Part shown: positions 55,575-64,000 of the stretch, piece by piece
Position numbering within the stretch: position 1 is the first letter of the stretch
How the letters are laid out: each line of letters opens with the position of its first letter
DNA from: an uncultured Trueperaceae bacterium
GTDB lineage: Bacteria; Deinococcota; Deinococci; Deinococcales; Trueperaceae
DNA length: 64,000 nucleotides
Reading direction: 5' to 3'
Assembly (NCBI GenBank): GCA_937873495.1
Contig: CALMXZ010000007.1
Coordinates: 174,501-238,500, forward strand
Made by a program: the position numbers and the translations under genes
Notes under the pieces: generated by a model
Told to the model about the DNA's origin: nothing
What the model saw: only the letters and a program-made list of their open reading frames with translations
The model's database searches: none

Positions 55575-57020
55575 TCAGCCCGGGTCGGTGCGGATCCCGA
55601 CGGAGACGTACTTGATCTCCAGATACTCCTCGATGCCCCACGGGCCGCCCTCCCGGCCGATGCCGGACTGTTTCACGCCGCCGAAGGGTGCCTGGGGGGT
55701 GGAGGGCACGCCGTCGTTGATCCCGACGATCCCGTAGTCGAGCGCCTCGGCCATGCGGTGGGCGCGCGACAGGTCGTTGGTGAAGACGTACGCGGCCAGG
55801 CCGTAAGGGGTGTCGTTCGCCAAGCGCACGATCTCGGCCTCGTCGTCGAACACGCTCACGGGCGCGACCGGACCGAACGTCTCCTCGTTCATCAGGAGCA
55901 TGGCGGACGTGACCCCCGTGACGACGGTCGGCCGGAAGTACAGTCCCCCGAGCGCGGCGCCGCCGGTCACCACCAATGCGCCCTTCGCGACGGCGTCCTG
56001 CATGTGCTCCTGCACCTTGGCCAGGCCCTGGCCGTCGACGAGGGGCCCTATGTCGGTGGCGTCCAGGCCGGGGTCGCCGACGACGAGCTTGTCGCTCGCG
56101 GCGGCGAAAGCCGTGACGAACGCGTCGTGGACGCCGCGCTGCACGTAGATGCGGTTCGTGCAGACGCACGTCTGCCCGGAGTTGCGGTACTTGCAGGCGA
56201 TCGCTTCCCTGACGGCCACGTCGAGATCGGCGTCGTCGAAGACGATCAGGGGCGCGTGCCCGCCGAGCTCGAGGGAGATGCGCTTCACGGTATCGGCCGA
56301 CTTGCGGTAGAGGATCTTGCCGACGGCGGTCGAACCCGTGAACGTCACCTTCCTGATCCGCGGGTCGGCGATCAGGACGTCGGCCAGTGGCACGGGGTCG
56401 CTCGCAGGCAGCACTTGCAGCGTGCCGGCCGGGCCGCCGGCGTCGAGCCACAGCTTGGCCGTGGCCAGCGCCGAGAGGGGGCTCTGCTCCGCCGGCTTGA
56501 GGATGAAGGTGCAGCCCGCCGCGAGGGCGGGGGCCGCCTTGCGGGTCACCATCGCCACCGGGAAGTTCCACGGGGTGACGCCGAACACGGGTCCGACCGG
56601 CTGCCGCAAGGCGTAGAGGCGCTTGCTGCCGACGTGGCTGGGGAACGCCTCGCCGTGAACGCGCTTGGCCTCCTCCGCGTACCACTTCACGAACCCGGCG
56701 GCGTAGCTGACCTCGCCGCGCGACTCCCGGATCGGCTTGCCCATCTCCGCGCTCATCAGTTCCGCGAGGGCGGCCTGATGCTCGAGGATGAGGTCGGCCC
56801 AGCGCTCCAACAGCGCCGAGCGCGCGAACGCGGTGGTGGCGCGCCAGTCGGCGAACGCCCGCTCGGAGACGACCACCGCCTCTGCCGCCTCGGCGGCGCC
56901 GCAGTCCGCCGCCCTGGCGATCACCGCTCCGCCGGCCGGGCTCCTGACGTCGAACGTCCGGTCGGTAGCGACCCACTCATGGCCGAGGTAACGCCCCTCG
57001 ACTTCGAAGACTTGCTTCAC
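55575..57020 (-). CDS. Succinate-semialdehyde dehydrogenase-like aldehyde dehydrogenase
   Basis: The 481-residue NAD(P)-dependent aldehyde dehydrogenase has the general-base Glu251 in LELGGHAP and nucleophile Cys285 in NSGQTCVCTNR, the latter in the GabD form with two flanking cysteines. Length equals E. coli GabD. VTPWNFP and FTGST are cofactor blocks. The start at GTG 57020 is chosen because AGGAGG lies 8 nt upstream; ATGs at 57026 and 57038 are too close to or ahead of it. It is the last gene of the 2-oxoacid dehydrogenase operon. Confidence 0.88.
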   Translation of the reverse strand: MKQVFEVEGRYLGHEWVATDRTFDVRSPAGGAVIARAADCGAAEAAEAVVVSERAFADWRATTAFARSALLERWADLILEHQAALAELMSAEMGKPIRESRGEVSYAAGFVKWYAEEAKRVHGEAFPSHVGSKRLYALRQPVGPVFGVTPWNFPVAMVTRKAAPALAAGCTFILKPAEQSPLSALATAKLWLDAGGPAGTLQVLPASDPVPLADVLIADPRIRKVTFTGSTAVGKILYRKSADTVKRISLELGGHAPLIVFDDADLDVAVREAIACKYRNSGQTCVCTNRIYVQRGVHDAFVTAFAAASDKLVVGDPGLDATDIGPLVDGQGLAKVQEHMQDAVAKGALVVTGGAALGGLYFRPTVVTGVTSAMLLMNEETFGPVAPVSVFDDEAEIVRLANDTPYGLAAYVFTNDLSRAHRMAEALDYGIVGINDGVPSTPQAPFGGVKQSGIGREGGPWGIEEYLEIKYVSVGIRTDPG

Positions 57021-57043
57021 CTGCATAACCTCCTGCATAAGAC

Positions 57044-58339
57044 TCAACCGTAGAGGGCCAAGGAGAACGGGTCCTCCAGGACCCACCCGAGCTGGGAGAA
57101 GACGGCGGCTGCCTCGGGGTCGGCTACCGCCCTCGAGTCGTAGTCGAGGCGCAGGCTAGCTTCGCGCCCGGCGCCGGTAGCGGCCGGACCGGAGCCGTTG
57201 ACGGGTCCGAGCGTGAGCCTTAGCAGCGCACCGGCGGGCAGCAGCGCCCCGGACTGCTCGAACGCCTGCGCGCTCCGGTCGTCGACGGCGATGGTCGGTC
57301 CGGCGGCGTCCGGCCGCTCCCCGCCGCCGGCGCTCGCCGGTTCGGCGCGCTCGCGCGCCAGGGAGACGTCGAGGACCGAGCGCGCCTGCGCGGCGCCGAT
57401 GACCACGCTGCGCCCTGCCCCGGCGGCGGAGTAGACCGTGACGGTCACGCCGGCGGCCGGCGGCCCCGCGACGCGGTTCCAGACGCCGACGAGCGCCCTG
57501 GTCAGCAGGTCGGCGGGCACGATCTTCTCCGGCCACGGGGTCCCGAGCTTGGCATGCGCCGCGGACGCGTTGGCTTTCTCGAGGAACCGCAGGAGCGGCG
57601 CGGCGTCGAACCGCGTGTGGCACCACGCGGCGCCGCTCACCAGGGCAGCGGCCTCTGGCGCAGGACGGACCGGGGCGGCGGCGTCACCGACCATCACCGC
57701 GGCACTGGGGGCGTTACCGCCGGCCGCGGCCGGCGGCGCCGGGAACGCGGCGGGGGCCACCGGCACCGGGAGCGCTGCCACGGCCGGCGCGCGCAGGTCG
57801 AGGTCGACCGCCCTTATGGCGCCCCCCGGCCCGGTGCCGACGACCTCCGCCAGCGCGATCCCGTACTGGCGCGCCAGCCGCTTGGCCTTCGGCGAAGCGG
57901 CCGAACGTCCGTCGCCGGGCCGGGGTCCGGCGATCTCCCACGTCGTCTCCCACGTGCTCTCCCTCGTGCTCTCCCTCGGCGCGCTCAGGCGCGGCGGCGG
58001 TGCCGCCACGGCCGGAGGAGCGGCGAAGGTGGGCGCCGCCGCCGGTTCGGTACTAGTCGGCGGCGCGCTCCGCGCGTGCGCCGTGCCGCCCGCCGCCTCC
58101 CCCGGGGCGAGCAGCACGGCCAGAACCGTGCCGACCTTCACCTCGGCCCCCTCGCGGTAAGCGACGGCGCTGAGGGTGCCGGAGGCGGTCGCCGGCACCT
58201 CGACGACGGCCTTGTCCGTCTCGACCTCCATGAGCGGCTCGCCCTCACGGACGCTCGCGCCTTCGGCCACGAGCCACTTGACGAGCACGCCGCTCTCTTG
58301 CGCCATACCGAGGGCAGGCATGATGACGTCCTTAGCCAC
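57044..58339 (-). CDS. Lipoyl-bearing E2-like protein with eroded acyltransferase domain
   Basis: The 431-residue protein has an intact N-terminal lipoyl domain (lipoyl Lys in EVETDKAVVEVP, about residue 43), a Pro/Ala-rich linker with an EST/ETT repeat, a peripheral-subunit-binding domain (ASPKAKRLARQYGIALAEVVGTGPGG) and a C-terminal E2-like domain. The normal catalytic DHRVxDG is replaced by DSRAVADP, and the TISNLG block by TIAVDD, so acyl transfer by the usual His/Asp is unlikely. GTG start with GGAG 6 nt upstream. It lies in an operon with E1alpha/E1beta, so it may still carry lipoyl groups for another E2. Confidence 0.85.
   Translation of the reverse strand: MAKDVIMPALGMAQESGVLVKWLVAEGASVREGEPLMEVETDKAVVEVPATASGTLSAVAYREGAEVKVGTVLAVLLAPGEAAGGTAHARSAPPTSTEPAAAPTFAAPPAVAAPPPRLSAPRESTRESTWETTWEIAGPRPGDGRSAASPKAKRLARQYGIALAEVVGTGPGGAIRAVDLDLRAPAVAALPVPVAPAAFPAPPAAAGGNAPSAAVMVGDAAAPVRPAPEAAALVSGAAWCHTRFDAAPLLRFLEKANASAAHAKLGTPWPEKIVPADLLTRALVGVWNRVAGPPAAGVTVTVYSAAGAGRSVVIGAAQARSVLDVSLARERAEPASAGGGERPDAAGPTIAVDDRSAQAFEQSGALLPAGALLRLTLGPVNGSGPAATGAGREASLRLDYDSRAVADPEAAAVFSQLGWVLEDPFSLALYG
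57930..57977. repeat. Four 12-nt tandem repeats in the E2 linker
   Basis: Four consecutive 12-nt units of the type GTGCTCTCCCTC (two copies identical, at 57954 and 57966; the others differ at a few bases) encode a four-residue repeat ESTR-ESTW-ETTW-EIAG in the interdomain linker. Confidence 0.85.
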
Positions 58340-58366: not shown

Positions 58367-59722
58367 TCATTCCTCGGCGCCGCCCGTCGCACCGGCGTCG
58401 GCGGCGGGCAGGCGCGGGGCCACCCTCGGGTTGTTGAGCGCCGACTGGGTGTCCCTGACCGTGGAGAGCGGCCCGGCGGTGCTGTAGTACCTGGGGCCCG
58501 TCACCATCAGCTGTTCGGCCGGGAAGCGCGAGATGATCTCGCAGCCGTCGCTCGTCACGACGACCTCCTCCTCGATCCGCGCCGCCGACCAGCCGTCGCT
58601 GGCGGGCCAGAACGTCTCGAGCGCGAAGACCATCCCCTCTTCGATGACTTCCGGGTGATCGAACGACACGAGGCGGCTGAAGATGGGCTTCTCCCAGATG
58701 TTCAGGCCGATGCCGTGACCGTACTGGAGGGCGAACGCCAGCTCCTCGTCGGGGAACCCGAACTCCTTGGCGCGCGGCCATACCTCCACGACCTCGGCCG
58801 TGGTCACGCCCGGCCTGATGAGGCTGATGGCGTGGTCGAGGAGGTCGCGGCACTTGTCGTAGGCGCTCACCTGCGCGCGGGACGCGCTTCCGACCACGAA
58901 GGTGCGGTAGTAGCACGTGCGGTAGCCCATGTAGCTCTGGAGGATGTCGAAGTAGGCCGGGTCGCCGGGCCTCAACATGCGGTCGGAGGCGACGTGCGGG
59001 TGCGGGTTGCAGCGCTCGCCGCTGATGGCGTTCACGCCCTCGACCATCTCCGAGCCGTGCTCGTACAGGAACTTGGTGACCAGCCCGACGATGTCGTTCT
59101 CCCGGACCCCGGGGCGCAGGTTCTCGTAGACGAGCTGGTACGCCCCGTCGACCATCCCGGCCGCGTGCGTGAGGAGCGAGATCTCGTCGACCGTCTTGAT
59201 CTTGCGCGCCTCGAGCATGAGTTGCTGACCGTCGACGATCTCGAGGCCGAGCTTCTGCAGCGCGAAGAGGATGGGGAGCTCCACCAGGTCGATGGCGACC
59301 GGCTCGCGCTCGAGGCCGCGCGCGGCCAGTTCCCGGTAGATGTCTGACGCGACCTTCTCGGCCCTGCCCATCTGCGGCGAGATGGTCCCGCGCAGCATGG
59401 ACACGCCGGGCCTGGAGCGCTCGGCGCCGTCCAACCACGGCGCGTAGAGCTGGTGGTGCTTGGCGGCGGAACCGAAGTCCCAGAGGATCGGAGCGCCGCC
59501 GCGCGCCAGCAAGGTGAAGCGCGCGACCTTGTCTTGCGCCCACGTGCCGATGTGCGTGGAGGTCACGTAGCGCACATTGTTCATGTCGAAGAGCAGCAGG
59601 GCGCCCGCCTCCGAGCGCTCCAGCACCCCCTGGATGCGCTCCAGGCGCTGGGTGCGGAGCCTCTCGAAGTCGATCCTCTGCTCCCAGTCGACCCCCATCG
59701 TGCCGTAGGTGTGGATAGCCAT
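58367..59722 (-). CDS. M24 creatinase/Xaa-Pro-peptidase fold protein
   Basis: The 451-residue protein has the two-domain pita-bread architecture. The C-terminal domain keeps HPHVASD, the first metal Asp in GDPAYFDI, His in YGHGIGLNIWEKP, Glu in ALETFWP and Glu in ARIEEEVVVT, but the second metal Asp is replaced by Cys in GYRTCYYRTF. Altered metal sites occur in creatinase-like members that hydrolyse C-N bonds without metal. It sits between E1beta and E2 genes, so it may release the substrate whose carbon skeleton the dehydrogenase handles. ATG 59722 has GGAG 10 nt upstream. Confidence 0.8.
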   Translation of the reverse strand: MAIHTYGTMGVDWEQRIDFERLRTQRLERIQGVLERSEAGALLLFDMNNVRYVTSTHIGTWAQDKVARFTLLARGGAPILWDFGSAAKHHQLYAPWLDGAERSRPGVSMLRGTISPQMGRAEKVASDIYRELAARGLEREPVAIDLVELPILFALQKLGLEIVDGQQLMLEARKIKTVDEISLLTHAAGMVDGAYQLVYENLRPGVRENDIVGLVTKFLYEHGSEMVEGVNAISGERCNPHPHVASDRMLRPGDPAYFDILQSYMGYRTCYYRTFVVGSASRAQVSAYDKCRDLLDHAISLIRPGVTTAEVVEVWPRAKEFGFPDEELAFALQYGHGIGLNIWEKPIFSRLVSFDHPEVIEEGMVFALETFWPASDGWSAARIEEEVVVTSDGCEIISRFPAEQLMVTGPRYYSTAGPLSTVRDTQSALNNPRVAPRLPAADAGATGGAEE

Positions 59723-59749
59723 GGCTGACAAGCTCCTTCTGGCGCGCGT

Positions 59750-60778
59750 TCAGGCCTCTCCGGCCAACAACCGCTTGGTGAGTGCGACGACCACTTCGGG
59801 CGTGGGGACGGTGACGTCTTCCAGCGTCGGGGCGAAGGGCACGGGCACGTCCATGGCGCCCAAGCGCTTCACCGGGGCGTCGAGGTGATAGAAGGCGCCG
59901 TCCGCGATAACGGCGGCGAGCTCCGCCGTCACCCCGTAGCGCTCGTAACCCTCGTCGATGACGATCACATGGCCCGTCTTCTTCGCCGACGCGACCAGGG
60001 TCTCCTTGTCGAGCGGGAAGAGCGTGCGCGGATCGACGACCTCGGCGCTGACGCCCTGCCGGGCCAGTTCATCGGCCGCCTTGAGCGCCACTTGCACCAT
60101 GCTGCTCGTGGCGACGAGCGTGACGTGCTCGCCGGGGCGTTTCACGTCGGCGACGCCGAAGGGGATCGCGTAGTCGCCTTCCGGCACCTCGCCCTTGTCC
60201 GTGTAGCCCATCTTGTCCTCGAAGAAGACCACCGGGTTGTCGTTCCTGATGGCCGTCTTGAGAAGCCCCTTCGCGTCGTACGGCGTCGAGGGGGTGACGA
60301 CGATGAGGCCCGGCACATGGCTGACCCAGGCCTGCAGGCTCTGGCTATGCTGCGCGGCCGAGCGCCGCGTCGCGCCGAGGGTGGTGCGCAGCACGAGCGG
60401 TACGCGGAGCTTCCCGCCCGACATGTAGTGGGTCTTGGCCGCCTGGTTGACCAGCTGGTCCATCACCAGCGTGAGGAAGTCGCCGAACATCAGGTCGACG
60501 ACGGGCCTCATCCCGGTCATGGCGGCTCCGACGGCGAGGCCGGTGAAGCCCGCCTCCGAGATGGGGGTGTCGATGACACGGCCAGGCCCGAACTCCTCGA
60601 CCAGCCCCGAGAGGACCTTGAAGGGCGTGCCCGCCTCCGCGACGTCCTCGCCGATGACGAAGACCCGCTCGTCGCGGCGCATCTCCTCCGCGAGCGCCTC
60701 GCGCACGGCCTGCGAGAACGTGATGACGCGCGCGGCCTCGGGGCGGGCGGCGGCCACGAGGGCTTCAAGCGTAGACAT
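59750..60778 (-). CDS. 2-oxoacid dehydrogenase E1 beta subunit
   Basis: The 342-residue protein is the beta half of a heterotetrameric pyruvate, branched-chain or acetoin dehydrogenase E1. FVIGEDVAEAGTPFKVLSGL, DTPISEAGFTGLAVGAAMTG and QHSQSLQAWVSHVPGL are family blocks, and VDPRTLFPLD is in the C-terminal transketolase fold. Acetoin-type and pyruvate-type are not separable by eye. The start overlaps the E1alpha stop by 14 nt. Confidence 0.92.
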   Translation of the reverse strand: MSTLEALVAAARPEAARVITFSQAVREALAEEMRRDERVFVIGEDVAEAGTPFKVLSGLVEEFGPGRVIDTPISEAGFTGLAVGAAMTGMRPVVDLMFGDFLTLVMDQLVNQAAKTHYMSGGKLRVPLVLRTTLGATRRSAAQHSQSLQAWVSHVPGLIVVTPSTPYDAKGLLKTAIRNDNPVVFFEDKMGYTDKGEVPEGDYAIPFGVADVKRPGEHVTLVATSSMVQVALKAADELARQGVSAEVVDPRTLFPLDKETLVASAKKTGHVIVIDEGYERYGVTAELAAVIADGAFYHLDAPVKRLGAMDVPVPFAPTLEDVTVPTPEVVVALTKRLLAGEA

Positions 60779-61742
60779 GCAGCGTCACCTCGCTCGGATC
60801 GGGGAACGGCGCGGCGAGGGCGAAGGCAAGGGCGGCGGCCGCTTCCTCACGCACGGCGGCCTGCAGCGCGGCCAGCTCCTCGGCGCTCGCGAGGCCGGCC
60901 GCCACGAGCCGCTCACCGAAGAGCTTGATGGGATCGCGCTTCTCGCGCCACTCCAGCTCCTCGGCCTTGGGCCGGTAGTACTCACGGTTGATGTCGCCCA
61001 CGTGATGGCCGTGGTAGCGGTACGTGTGGCACTCGACGAGGGCCGGGCCGCCACCGTCCCTGGCGGCTGCCACGAGCTGCGTCAGGACCTCGTTGACGGC
61101 GAGGACGTCCTGACCGTCGACCTCGAACGCCTTCATGCCGAGCGCCTGCGCTCGGCCGAGGACCGTGCCTGCGGTGGTCTCGCTGAAGTGCGTGTACTCG
61201 CCGTAGCGGTTGTTCTCGCACACGTAGATGACGGGCAGGTCCCACAGCTGGGCCATGTTCATGACCTCGTGGAGCAGGCCCTGCCCGAGCGCGCCCTCCC
61301 CGAAGAAGCAGACGGCCACCTGACCGCTGCCGCGCATCTTCGCCGAGAGCGCCGCGCCCGTCGCGATGCCGGCGCTGCCACCGACGATGGCGTTCGCGCC
61401 GAGGTTGCCGTTCTCCTGGTCGGCGATGTGCATCGAGCCGCCCTTGCCGCGGTTGTAGCCCGGGCTGCGGCCGAGCAGCTCGGCGAACATCAGGTCGAGC
61501 CTGGCGCCCTTCGCCACGCAGTGGCCGTGACCACGGTGCGTGCTCGTGATGTAGTCCTCACGCTGGAGCGCCTCGCAGACGCCAACGGCGACCGCCTCCT
61601 GGCCGGTGTAGAGGTGGGTCAGCCCCGGCATCTTGCCCGCCAGGTAGAGCTCGTTCGCATGCTCCTCGAACACGCGGATCCTCCACATCTGCTGGTAGAT
61701 GCGGCTGCCTACCTCGGCGCTGATCCGCAGCGCACCGCTCAT
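60765..61742 (-). CDS. 2-oxoacid dehydrogenase E1 alpha subunit
   Basis: The 325-residue protein binds thiamine diphosphate: GEGALGQGLLHEVMNMA and CENNRYGEYTHF give the GDG-type motif, and THLYTGQEAVAVG, STHRGHGHCVAKG and GKGGSMHI are typical of AcoA/PdhA. With E1beta it decarboxylates a 2-oxoacid or acetoin and acylates a lipoyl group. ATG 61742 has AAGGA 7 nt upstream and is preferred over the GTG at 61778. It is the first structural gene after the FadR-type regulator. Confidence 0.92.
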   Translation of the reverse strand: MSGALRISAEVGSRIYQQMWRIRVFEEHANELYLAGKMPGLTHLYTGQEAVAVGVCEALQREDYITSTHRGHGHCVAKGARLDLMFAELLGRSPGYNRGKGGSMHIADQENGNLGANAIVGGSAGIATGAALSAKMRGSGQVAVCFFGEGALGQGLLHEVMNMAQLWDLPVIYVCENNRYGEYTHFSETTAGTVLGRAQALGMKAFEVDGQDVLAVNEVLTQLVAAARDGGGPALVECHTYRYHGHHVGDINREYYRPKAEELEWREKRDPIKLFGERLVAAGLASAEELAALQAAVREEAAAALAFALAAPFPDPSEVTLHVYA

Positions 61743-61823
61743 GGACGGTTCCTTCGTCTCGATCACTTCACTCCTCACGCTTTCCGATCCCGTGGCGTTC
61801 TTCGCCGAGCGCCGGACGGGTCC

Positions 61824-62537
61824 TTACCGGGTATCCAACGGTCTTGGGTGCTGCGTGCTGTCTCGCCTGACCTGCGCCAGGTGGCTCCTCATCGCCTCGC
61901 GCGCCGCCTCGGGGGCGCCCTCCTCGACGGCCCGCAGGATGCGTTTGTGATGGTCCTGCCCCCGCGCCGGGCCGCCCTCCGTGTGGAAGATGCGGCCCCG
62001 GTGCTCCTGCAGGACATCGACGACCGACGCCATGAGGCGAGGCACGAACACGTTCTGCGTGGCCACGGCCAGCGCCAAGTGGAAGGCGTTGTCGGCCTGG
62101 ATGTAACGGGGCATGTCGTGCATCCACTTGTCCATGGCCGCGACGGCCTGCTGCAACGCGCGGACGTCCTCCGGCCGCGCGCGAAGGGCGGCGCGGTAAG
62201 CGATCTCTGGTTCGAGGATCTCCCGCACTTCCACGAGGTTCTCTTGGGAGCCGACCCCGGAGTCGAGGCCGAGCATGGTCTGGAACGACTGCGAGAGGGT
62301 GTCGCCGGTGGCGTTCACGACGAAGGTGCCTTGGCCCGGCTTCACCTCGATGAGGCCCTTCACCGCGAGCGCCTTGCTCGCCTCGCGGATGACCGTGCGG
62401 CTGACGCCGAACTGCTCCGCGAGTGCGCGCTCGTTCGGCAAGCGGTCTCCGGCGGACAGCTCGCCGGCGCTGATGAGGTCCTGCAACTTGTCCGCCACCT
62501 TCTCGTAAAGCCGCTGTTGCTTGAGTGGTTCGATCAT
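61824..62537 (-). CDS. FadR-subfamily GntR regulator
   Basis: The 237-residue protein joins an N-terminal GntR winged helix (YEKVADKLQDLISAGELSAGDRLPNERALAEQFGVSRTVIREA, residues about 11-55) to an all-helical FCD domain with the metal-site His residues in AFHLALA and DHHKRIL. FCD regulators usually sense carboxylates such as lactate, pyruvate or gluconate. It begins the operon of E1alpha through aldehyde dehydrogenase. ATG 62537 has AAGGG 6 nt upstream; an ATG at 62543 directly follows it. A TGGT-3-ACCA operator lies 84 nt upstream. Confidence 0.9.
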   Translation of the reverse strand: MIEPLKQQRLYEKVADKLQDLISAGELSAGDRLPNERALAEQFGVSRTVIREASKALAVKGLIEVKPGQGTFVVNATGDTLSQSFQTMLGLDSGVGSQENLVEVREILEPEIAYRAALRARPEDVRALQQAVAAMDKWMHDMPRYIQADNAFHLALAVATQNVFVPRLMASVVDVLQEHRGRIFHTEGGPARGQDHHKRILRAVEEGAPEAAREAMRSHLAQVRRDSTQHPRPLDTR

Positions 62538-62620
62538 GGTCATCCCTTCCCCCGAGCCACAGGCACGCGCTAGCTGAGCGGCAGCGTTCCCGGCGCTGCC
62601 GGCGGCGGTGCCCAGTCGTC

Positions 62621-62639: not shown

Positions 62640-64000
62640 TTAGACGGCCTTCCTCGGAAAAGCATCCGCCGCGGTGACCGACAGCCGGTCGCGGCCCAAC
62701 CGGACGTTCACGGGGCCGTCGACGGTCATCCGAACGTCGGGCAGCACGCCGGGCATGCAGAGGTAGGCCAGACCCGTGAAGAGCCCGTCGAAGCTGCCAC
62801 CGAGCTCCTCCCGTACGGCCCGCTTGACGGCGCGGAACGCCGCGACGACCTCCTCGGCCGGCTCCGAGCTCAGGAAGCCAAGAATGGGTAGCGCGGCCTC
62901 CGCCACCACCCGGCCACCGACGGCGGCCACGAACCCCCCGCCCAGCTCGGCGATCCGCGCGGCCACCACCGCCATGTCGTGATCGTCGACACCGACGACG
63001 GCCAGGTGCAGCGGCCCGGGGTGGTAGGAGGAGCCGAAGGCGCCGCGCTCGATCCCGAAGCCGCTCACGAACCCCCTGCCGACCTTCCCGCTGGCGAAGT
63101 GGCGCTCGGCGATGGCGATCTTCGCCACGTCCCGTTCCGGGTCTGCCGGCACGGCGCCCGCGACGACGGGCAAGGCGACCGTGCGGGCCTCGGTGCGCAC
63201 GTCGTACGGCCTGATGTCGATGACGAGCGTCTCGACGCTGCCGTCCTGGTCGGGCCGCGGCGCCTCCACGACGAAGTCGGCCGCGCTCAGGGGCGCCCTC
63301 AGCCTGATCGTGTCGCTGAAGTCGTCCGGGTACTCGGGGGCGGTCAGCTCGCCGACGTACCGCCCGGCCCGCGCCACCACCTCGCTGCCGACGACGACCT
63401 CGGTGACCGTGAAGCTGCGCAGGTCGTCGACGAGGTTGACGAAGGCGCGTCTGCCCGGCGCTATGCCGCCCAGGTCGGCGCCGATCCCGAGGTAGTTGGC
63501 CGCGTTGATGGTCGCCATCTGAACGGCGGCGATCGGCGGGATGCCCATCCCGATGGCGGCCCTGATCCGATGATCGAGGTGCCCGAGGTTGGCGAGGTCG
63601 TCTATGTCCTCCTCGTCCGTGGCGAACATGACGTTGCGGGTGTCCACCCGGTGCCTGGCGAGCGCCGCGAGCACGCCGAGGTTATCGGCACCGGAGCTGA
63701 ACCGCACCTGCACGGCGAGCCCGAGCCGGAGCCGTTCCAGGAGCTCGGCCTCGGTGGCGACCTCGTGATCCGAGAGGCTGCCGGCCGCCACGCTCGCCTG
63801 GAGGGTCGGTCCGGCTTGCCCGTCCATGTGCCCGCACAGCCGTTTGCCGTGGCTACGCGCGAGGCGTCCGAGCGACGCGAGCGTGCGGTTCTCGTTGCGC
63901 TGCGCGAACACGTTCCACTCCCGCAGCTCCACGCACTCGGGCCAGTCGAGCATCTCGACGAGGTCGTCCATACTGACGCCCGGCCGCCCCTCGATGCCCA
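62640..64000 (-). CDS. Adenine deaminase-like amidohydrolase (5' end outside window)
   Basis: The visible 450 residues match the C-terminal three-quarters of adenine deaminase (Ade) proteins; the frame runs open through the window's right edge, so the N-terminal HxH metal motif is not seen and the ATG at 63971 is internal. GHMDGQ, GSLSDHE and MFATDEED supply amidohydrolase His and Asp residues, and TINAANYLGIGADLGGIAPGR and GFVSGFGIERGAFGSS are Ade blocks. The usual AHDSHN motif in the C-terminal domain is replaced by YHPGPLH, so it may not act on adenine. It ends 9 nt from the FadR-type operator. Confidence 0.8.
   Translation of the reverse strand, partial: GIEGRPGVSMDDLVEMLDWPECVELREWNVFAQRNENRTLASLGRLARSHGKRLCGHMDGQAGPTLQASVAAGSLSDHEVATEAELLERLRLGLAVQVRFSSGADNLGVLAALARHRVDTRNVMFATDEEDIDDLANLGHLDHRIRAAIGMGIPPIAAVQMATINAANYLGIGADLGGIAPGRRAFVNLVDDLRSFTVTEVVVGSEVVARAGRYVGELTAPEYPDDFSDTIRLRAPLSAADFVVEAPRPDQDGSVETLVIDIRPYDVRTEARTVALPVVAGAVPADPERDVAKIAIAERHFASGKVGRGFVSGFGIERGAFGSSYHPGPLHLAVVGVDDHDMAVVAARIAELGGGFVAAVGGRVVAEAALPILGFLSSEPAEEVVAAFRAVKRAVREELGGSFDGLFTGLAYLCMPGVLPDVRMTVDGPVNVRLGRDRLSVTAADAFPRKAV

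Follow-up and report, generated by a model that had tools for sequence, protein, structure and literature searches.

A Deinococci 2-oxoacid dehydrogenase operon encodes an E2-like protein that keeps its lipoyl arm and lacks the acyltransferase residues

The operon and its E2-like gene

We analysed a window of 64,000 nucleotides from an uncultured Trueperaceae bacterium (genome G000). A run of genes on its minus strand encodes a GntR/FCD regulator, the alpha and beta subunits of E1, an M24-family protein, an E2-like protein and an aldehyde dehydrogenase (Table 1). The E2-like reading frame starts with a GTG at 58339 and stops at 57044-57046, and its product consists of a lipoyl domain, a peripheral-subunit-binding domain (PSBD) and a C-terminal domain of about 200 residues, with linkers rich in Ala and Pro. 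The preliminary description had taken the first two domains to be intact, and the Pfam search agreed with it for both, the PSBD being present as in active E2s. The ETDKA motif of the lipoyl domain was found as described; Lys43 within it (codon 58211-58213) is predicted to be the lipoylatable Lys of the DK motif of active E2s, and its equivalent was present in all 61 full-length operon E2s aligned from outside Deinococci.

Table 1. Location of the operon genes, and of the domains and motifs of the E2-like protein, in the window
Feature	Position	Strand	Basis
GntR/FCD-family regulator	61824..62543	-	Pfam PF00392, PF07729
E1 alpha subunit	60765..61778	-	Pfam PF00676, 2.9e-77
E1 beta subunit	59750..60778	-	Pfam PF02779/PF02780
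M24-family protein of the operon	58367..59731	-	Pfam PF00557
E2-like protein, 431 aa (lipoyl, PSBD and degenerate acyltransferase domains)	57044..58339	-	ORF and translation, Pfam
Lipoyl domain, aa 4-76	58112..58330	-	Pfam PF00364 (Biotin_lipoyl), 8.6e-19
PSBD, aa 148-180	57800..57898	-	Pfam PF02817 (E3_binding), 2.6e-10
Degenerate acyltransferase (CAT-like) domain, aa 230-431	57047..57652	-	no PF00198 match, hhalign, AlphaFold2/Foldseek
TIAVDD where active E2s have TFTISN, aa 349-354	57278..57295	-	translation, alignment
DSRAVAD where active E2s have DHRxxDG, aa 401-407	57119..57139	-	translation, alignment
Aldehyde dehydrogenase, directly downstream	55575..57086	-	Pfam PF00171, 1.3e-162

The regulator holds the same position in most related operons. 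In the M24-family protein, the second metal Asp is replaced by Cys (C273) and the second His by Trp (W346), as in 83 of 83 sequences across phyla; judged by these residues, it probably does not act as an ordinary metallopeptidase. The aldehyde dehydrogenase, whose nearest NCBIfam family is succinate-semialdehyde dehydrogenase (below the cut-off), is 92% identical to the copy of the congener G004, and it lies directly downstream in the window, in G004 and in G028, a genome of another genus. We also weighed the M24-family protein and the aldehyde dehydrogenase as substitutes for the acyltransferase; since both are found just as well in operons whose E2 is intact, neither was retained as a candidate. 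Upstream of the operon we also observed amidohydrolases that are adenine-deaminase-like (62640-63971 in the window; L026:3601-9053 in G004, apparently three in tandem).

Loss of active-site residues in a C-terminal domain with E2-like features

Both substitutions reported in the preliminary description, DSRAVADP for the conserved DHRVxDG and TIAVDD for the TISNLG block, were present as written. Alignment with the 61 full-length operon E2s identified H402S, D406A, G407D, S353D, N354D and H237A in the E2-like protein, while D401 (the equivalent of Asp374 in E. coli E2o) and R403 are retained. Thus, it lacks both the HxxxDG motif, which was found in 61 of 61 operon E2s elsewhere, and the Ser/Thr-Asn of TISN that together mark an active E2. 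In line with this, PF00198 gave no match to the window protein at E<=0.1 or to the E2-like proteins of G004 and G028 at E<=1, whereas operon E2s of other phyla scored about 1e-77 in the same Pfam test.

The missing His had been described as the residue that deprotonates CoA in every active E2, which is too strong a statement. Site-saturation of His375 in E. coli E2o left 0.5-59% of the activity (59% with Trp, 13% with Gly), Asp379Ala left 9.5%, and the authors doubted an acid-base role of this His (PMC5986005). The missing His alone is therefore not proof of inactivity. What argues for a catalytically inactive domain is that the His, the Asp and Gly of the DG pair, the Ser-Asn of TISN and most of the conserved columns are jointly gone, and that the genera share no common replacement motif; from this pattern, we infer that the domain is probably inactive.

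We further studied whether the C-terminal fold is still E2-like, as had been proposed. A profile of the three degenerate domains was aligned by hhalign with the canonical operon E2s over 185 columns (E 3.1e-6, probability 88), and shuffled and reversed controls gave probabilities below 1; with a single degenerate sequence, the match was weak. AlphaFold2 with the operon homologues modelled blocks of the C-terminal domain at pLDDT 57-92, a result that leans on the canonical homologues, and Foldseek returned E2 cores and E3BP for this model. With the three degenerate sequences only, the model was unusable (pLDDT 36), its order of strands and helices being similar. A direct sequence match to the PDB was not obtained for this domain. 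Altogether, the trio profile and the model built with canonical homologues are consistent with an E2-like fold, but the single sequence and the trio-only model did not bear it out.

Relatives, origin and constraint of the degenerate domain

As the preliminary description had anticipated, the variant is conserved in relatives with the same operon, namely in G004 and G028. The E2-like protein of G004 is 70% identical to that of the window and reads DYDSLALGDP, while that of G028 is shorter (371 aa) and reads NPAEVDH, with Asn aligned to the Asp374 equivalent and Pro to the His, so that the active-site losses differ between G000/G004 and G028. In G019, contig C92 ends after the lipoyl domain and the catalytic motif is unreadable. 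Joining this truncated gene to the E2 found at the beginning of contig C96 was rejected: the two do not overlap in sequence, and two further E1 genes are located close to contig ends. The E2 on C96 (L140:2-1060), truncated at the contig start, carries two tandem PSBDs and the motif DHRASDG; an acyl-carrier-protein-like ORF comes after it. A frameshift or assembly error near the motif, which had been named as a possible source of the variant, was ruled out since the congener shares the substitutions, the third genome has different ones, and HxxxDG is absent from both alternative frames across the motif. Nothing was found in favour of a sequencing or assembly error, which is a vanishingly improbable explanation.

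A search with the C-terminal domain alone recovered only the congener among the genomes of the class, so the M24 gene, which is 77-98% identical among the four Deinococci genomes, was used as the operon marker. We identified 80 M24 loci in Acidobacteriota, Chloroflexota, Actinomycetota, Pseudomonadota (Roseobacteraceae), Rokubacteria and one Deinococci. The order FCD-E1a-E1b-M24-E2 is common to most of them; the operon GntR/FCD-E1a-E1b-M24-E2 is also found in Acidobacteriota, Chloroflexota and Actinomycetota, while the Roseobacteraceae form is rearranged and has a single long E1. At three loci (L093, L099 and L107), an M24 gene was present and no E2 gene was found beside it, L093 reading E1a-E1b-M24-aldehyde dehydrogenase. 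Within the class, the operon occurs in 4 of 111 genomes. DHRxxDG is present in 61 of 61 full-length operon E2s outside Deinococci versus none of the three readable ones within it, and the M24 tree places the four Deinococci in one clade (100/100), next to an Anaerolineaceae locus with a canonical E2 (92/73). Together with the synteny, these results indicate that the C-terminal domain is a pseudo-acyltransferase that descends from the E2 of its own operon and is specific to this lineage. Loss of the active site from an ordinary operon E2 within the Deinococci lineage is the most economical reading.

To describe how the loss is distributed, we counted in the window proteins the columns conserved in at least 95% (E1a, E1b and M24) or at least 90% (E2) of the other operons. 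E1a kept 141 of 148, E1b 177 of 184 and M24 190 of 196, and M24 is equally conserved where the operon E2 is intact. Within the E2-like protein, 26 of 28 columns were kept in the lipoyl domain and 10 of 13 in the PSBD, but 17 of 56 in the catalytic domain. Between G000 and G004, dN/dS (Nei-Gojobori) was 0.20 for the lipoyl domain, 0.29 for the PSBD, 0.59-0.72 for the linkers and 0.40 for the catalytic remnant (bootstrap 0.26-0.62), with the reservation that dS may be misestimated in a GC-rich genome. By these ratios, the remnant is still under constraint, less so than the lipoyl arm. It also diverges fast (72% identity where M24 has 98%), which fits relaxed selection too.

A putative lipoyl carrier and its comparison with known systems

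If the domain is inactive, another E2 might take over the acyl group. There is no second E2 beside the operon's E1 at the locus. Elsewhere in the genome of the window, where the preliminary description had advised a search for a catalytic E2 and an E3, both were found: three complete PF00198 E2s, each beside its own E1, and two E3s passing the cut-off. The E2s adjoin a branched-chain-type E1 pair (L027), an AceE-type pyruvate E1 (L028) and a 2-oxoglutarate E1 with an E3 (L029). The genome further encodes three PF00676 E1s, the window's included, and one lipoate/octanoate transferase. G004 has three E2s; G028 has one active-type E2, of the pyruvate dehydrogenase (PDH) type, plus the degenerate one. 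Thus, of the active E2s only the PDH E2 is shared by all three genomes that carry the degenerate protein, a count to be read with genomes that are 95-97% complete, in which an E2 may have been missed.

Another protein of the window genome, L142:9156-10904 (G000:C3:145158-146900; 582 aa), carries an N-terminal PSBD and a long acidic linker, lacks a lipoyl domain and HxxxDG, and adjoins a putative PASTA-like protein. Its C-terminal part aligned weakly with E2 catalytic domains (166 columns, hhalign E 0.002, probability 14). Matches to it occur in 57 of 111 genomes of the class, the long ones mainly in the family of the window.

We propose, with as much doubt as confidence, that the protein is the former E2 of the operon's own E1 and that, after the loss of its acyltransferase, it acts as a lipoyl carrier and scaffold discharged by another E2. 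E1 (alpha/beta) would decarboxylate a 2-oxoacid and reductively acylate the lipoyl group predicted on Lys43, and the PSBD would hold E1 and/or a genome-wide E3. The acylated arm would then be discharged in trans by the catalytic domain of a different E2, with which the protein may share a mixed complex, and the remnant C-terminal domain may be kept for folding or assembly. The acceptor would most likely be the PDH E2, because no other active E2 is shared by all three genomes. Such transfer in trans is possible on two precedents. For E. coli E2o, the overall reaction was reconstituted in vitro from a lipoyl-PSBD didomain and a separate catalytic domain, with kcat/Km of 0.192 x 10^6 versus 1.07 x 10^6 M-1 s-1 for intact E2o, about 18% (PMC5986005), and in C. 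glutamicum the lipoyl arm works with a catalytic domain that belongs to a different chain (PMC7568260). Against the carrier and scaffold model, other E2s may not accept the acyl group of the operon's E1, the retained D401 and R403 might allow some residual activity, and the fast divergence of the domain could also reflect relaxed selection.

Other explanations have to be weighed against it. In one, the E2 gene would be decaying: the degenerate domain would have no role, and the complex could be dispensed with or would have been replaced already. The low conservation of the domain, the patchy operon and the different losses in G000/G004 and G028 fit this account, but the frames are open in two genera, E1 and M24 are almost unchanged, and dN/dS is 0.40 in the domain (upper limit 0.62) and 0.20 in the lipoyl domain, so that we consider decay unlikely. 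The acyl group might instead pass to a non-CoA acceptor, or the thioester be hydrolysed, for example by another operon protein, with no acyl-CoA made. Without the catalytic motif and the TISNLG strand, the CoA/oxyanion site would be gone, and the aldehyde dehydrogenase directly downstream in all three genomes would be at hand. However, aldehyde dehydrogenase genes also adjoin operons with intact E2s, where M24 is equally conserved; neither is tied to the loss, and no acceptor protein is linked specifically to the degenerate form, which makes this route quite unlikely.

Slow acyl transfer by an active site that has been remodelled could be imagined from the activity left in the E. coli E2o variants at His375 and Asp379 (PMC5986005) and from the Asp401 and Arg403 retained in the window protein. 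Yet those variants are single, whereas here several active-site positions are lost together and 39 of 56 conserved columns are gone, and G028 has neither the Asp374 equivalent nor the His, nor a replacement motif shared with the other genus; we therefore hold continued catalysis to be decidedly unlikely. A broader proposal takes in both the carrier and scaffold model and the non-CoA route, namely a natural bacterial 2-oxoacid dehydrogenase without its own acyltransferase, whose pseudo-E2 plugs into the core of another complex or feeds a non-CoA acceptor. We offer it tentatively, with slightly more doubt than confidence.

No description of the operon, or of a natural bacterial non-catalytic E2, was found in the open-access literature. 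The evident ancestor type of the E2-like protein is the M24-linked operon E2 of Acidobacteriota and Chloroflexota, which has the same operon position and the same lipoyl-PSBD-C-terminal order, but carries the PF00198 signature and DHRxxDG that are both gone here. The E. coli E2o didomain likewise combines an arm and a docking domain without catalysis and is complemented in trans, as proposed for the E2-like protein; however, it is a laboratory truncation, whereas the E2-like protein is the product of a natural gene that retains a pseudo-domain. The PDH-ODH hybrid complex of C. glutamicum shares with the proposed system an arm on one chain and an acyltransferase on another, but there E1o carries the second catalytic domain as a fusion, and the E2 is active in its own right.

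An analogue in logic is the eukaryotic E3BP (protein X), a paralogue of E2 that lacks catalytic activity and can be told by the absence of the His; it is described as a eukaryotic gene, and the reason for its loss of catalysis is an open question in the literature (PMC10156792). Both have an E2-like domain order and a C-terminal domain without the His, inactive in E3BP and, judging from sequence, probably so in the E2-like protein. However, the complex of E3BP also includes an active E2, and E3BP recruits E3, whereas the window operon has no active E2, and synteny indicates a separate origin of the E2-like protein from a bacterial operon E2. Given that the ancestral operon is intact in sister phyla, the system offers a before/after test of a complex whose E2 loses catalysis, and the bacterial case also makes it possible to ask whether, in cells, lipoyl arms work with a catalytic core that is not their own. 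If the proposal is true, a pseudo-E2 plugged into the core of another complex would be an independently evolved bacterial counterpart of E3BP.
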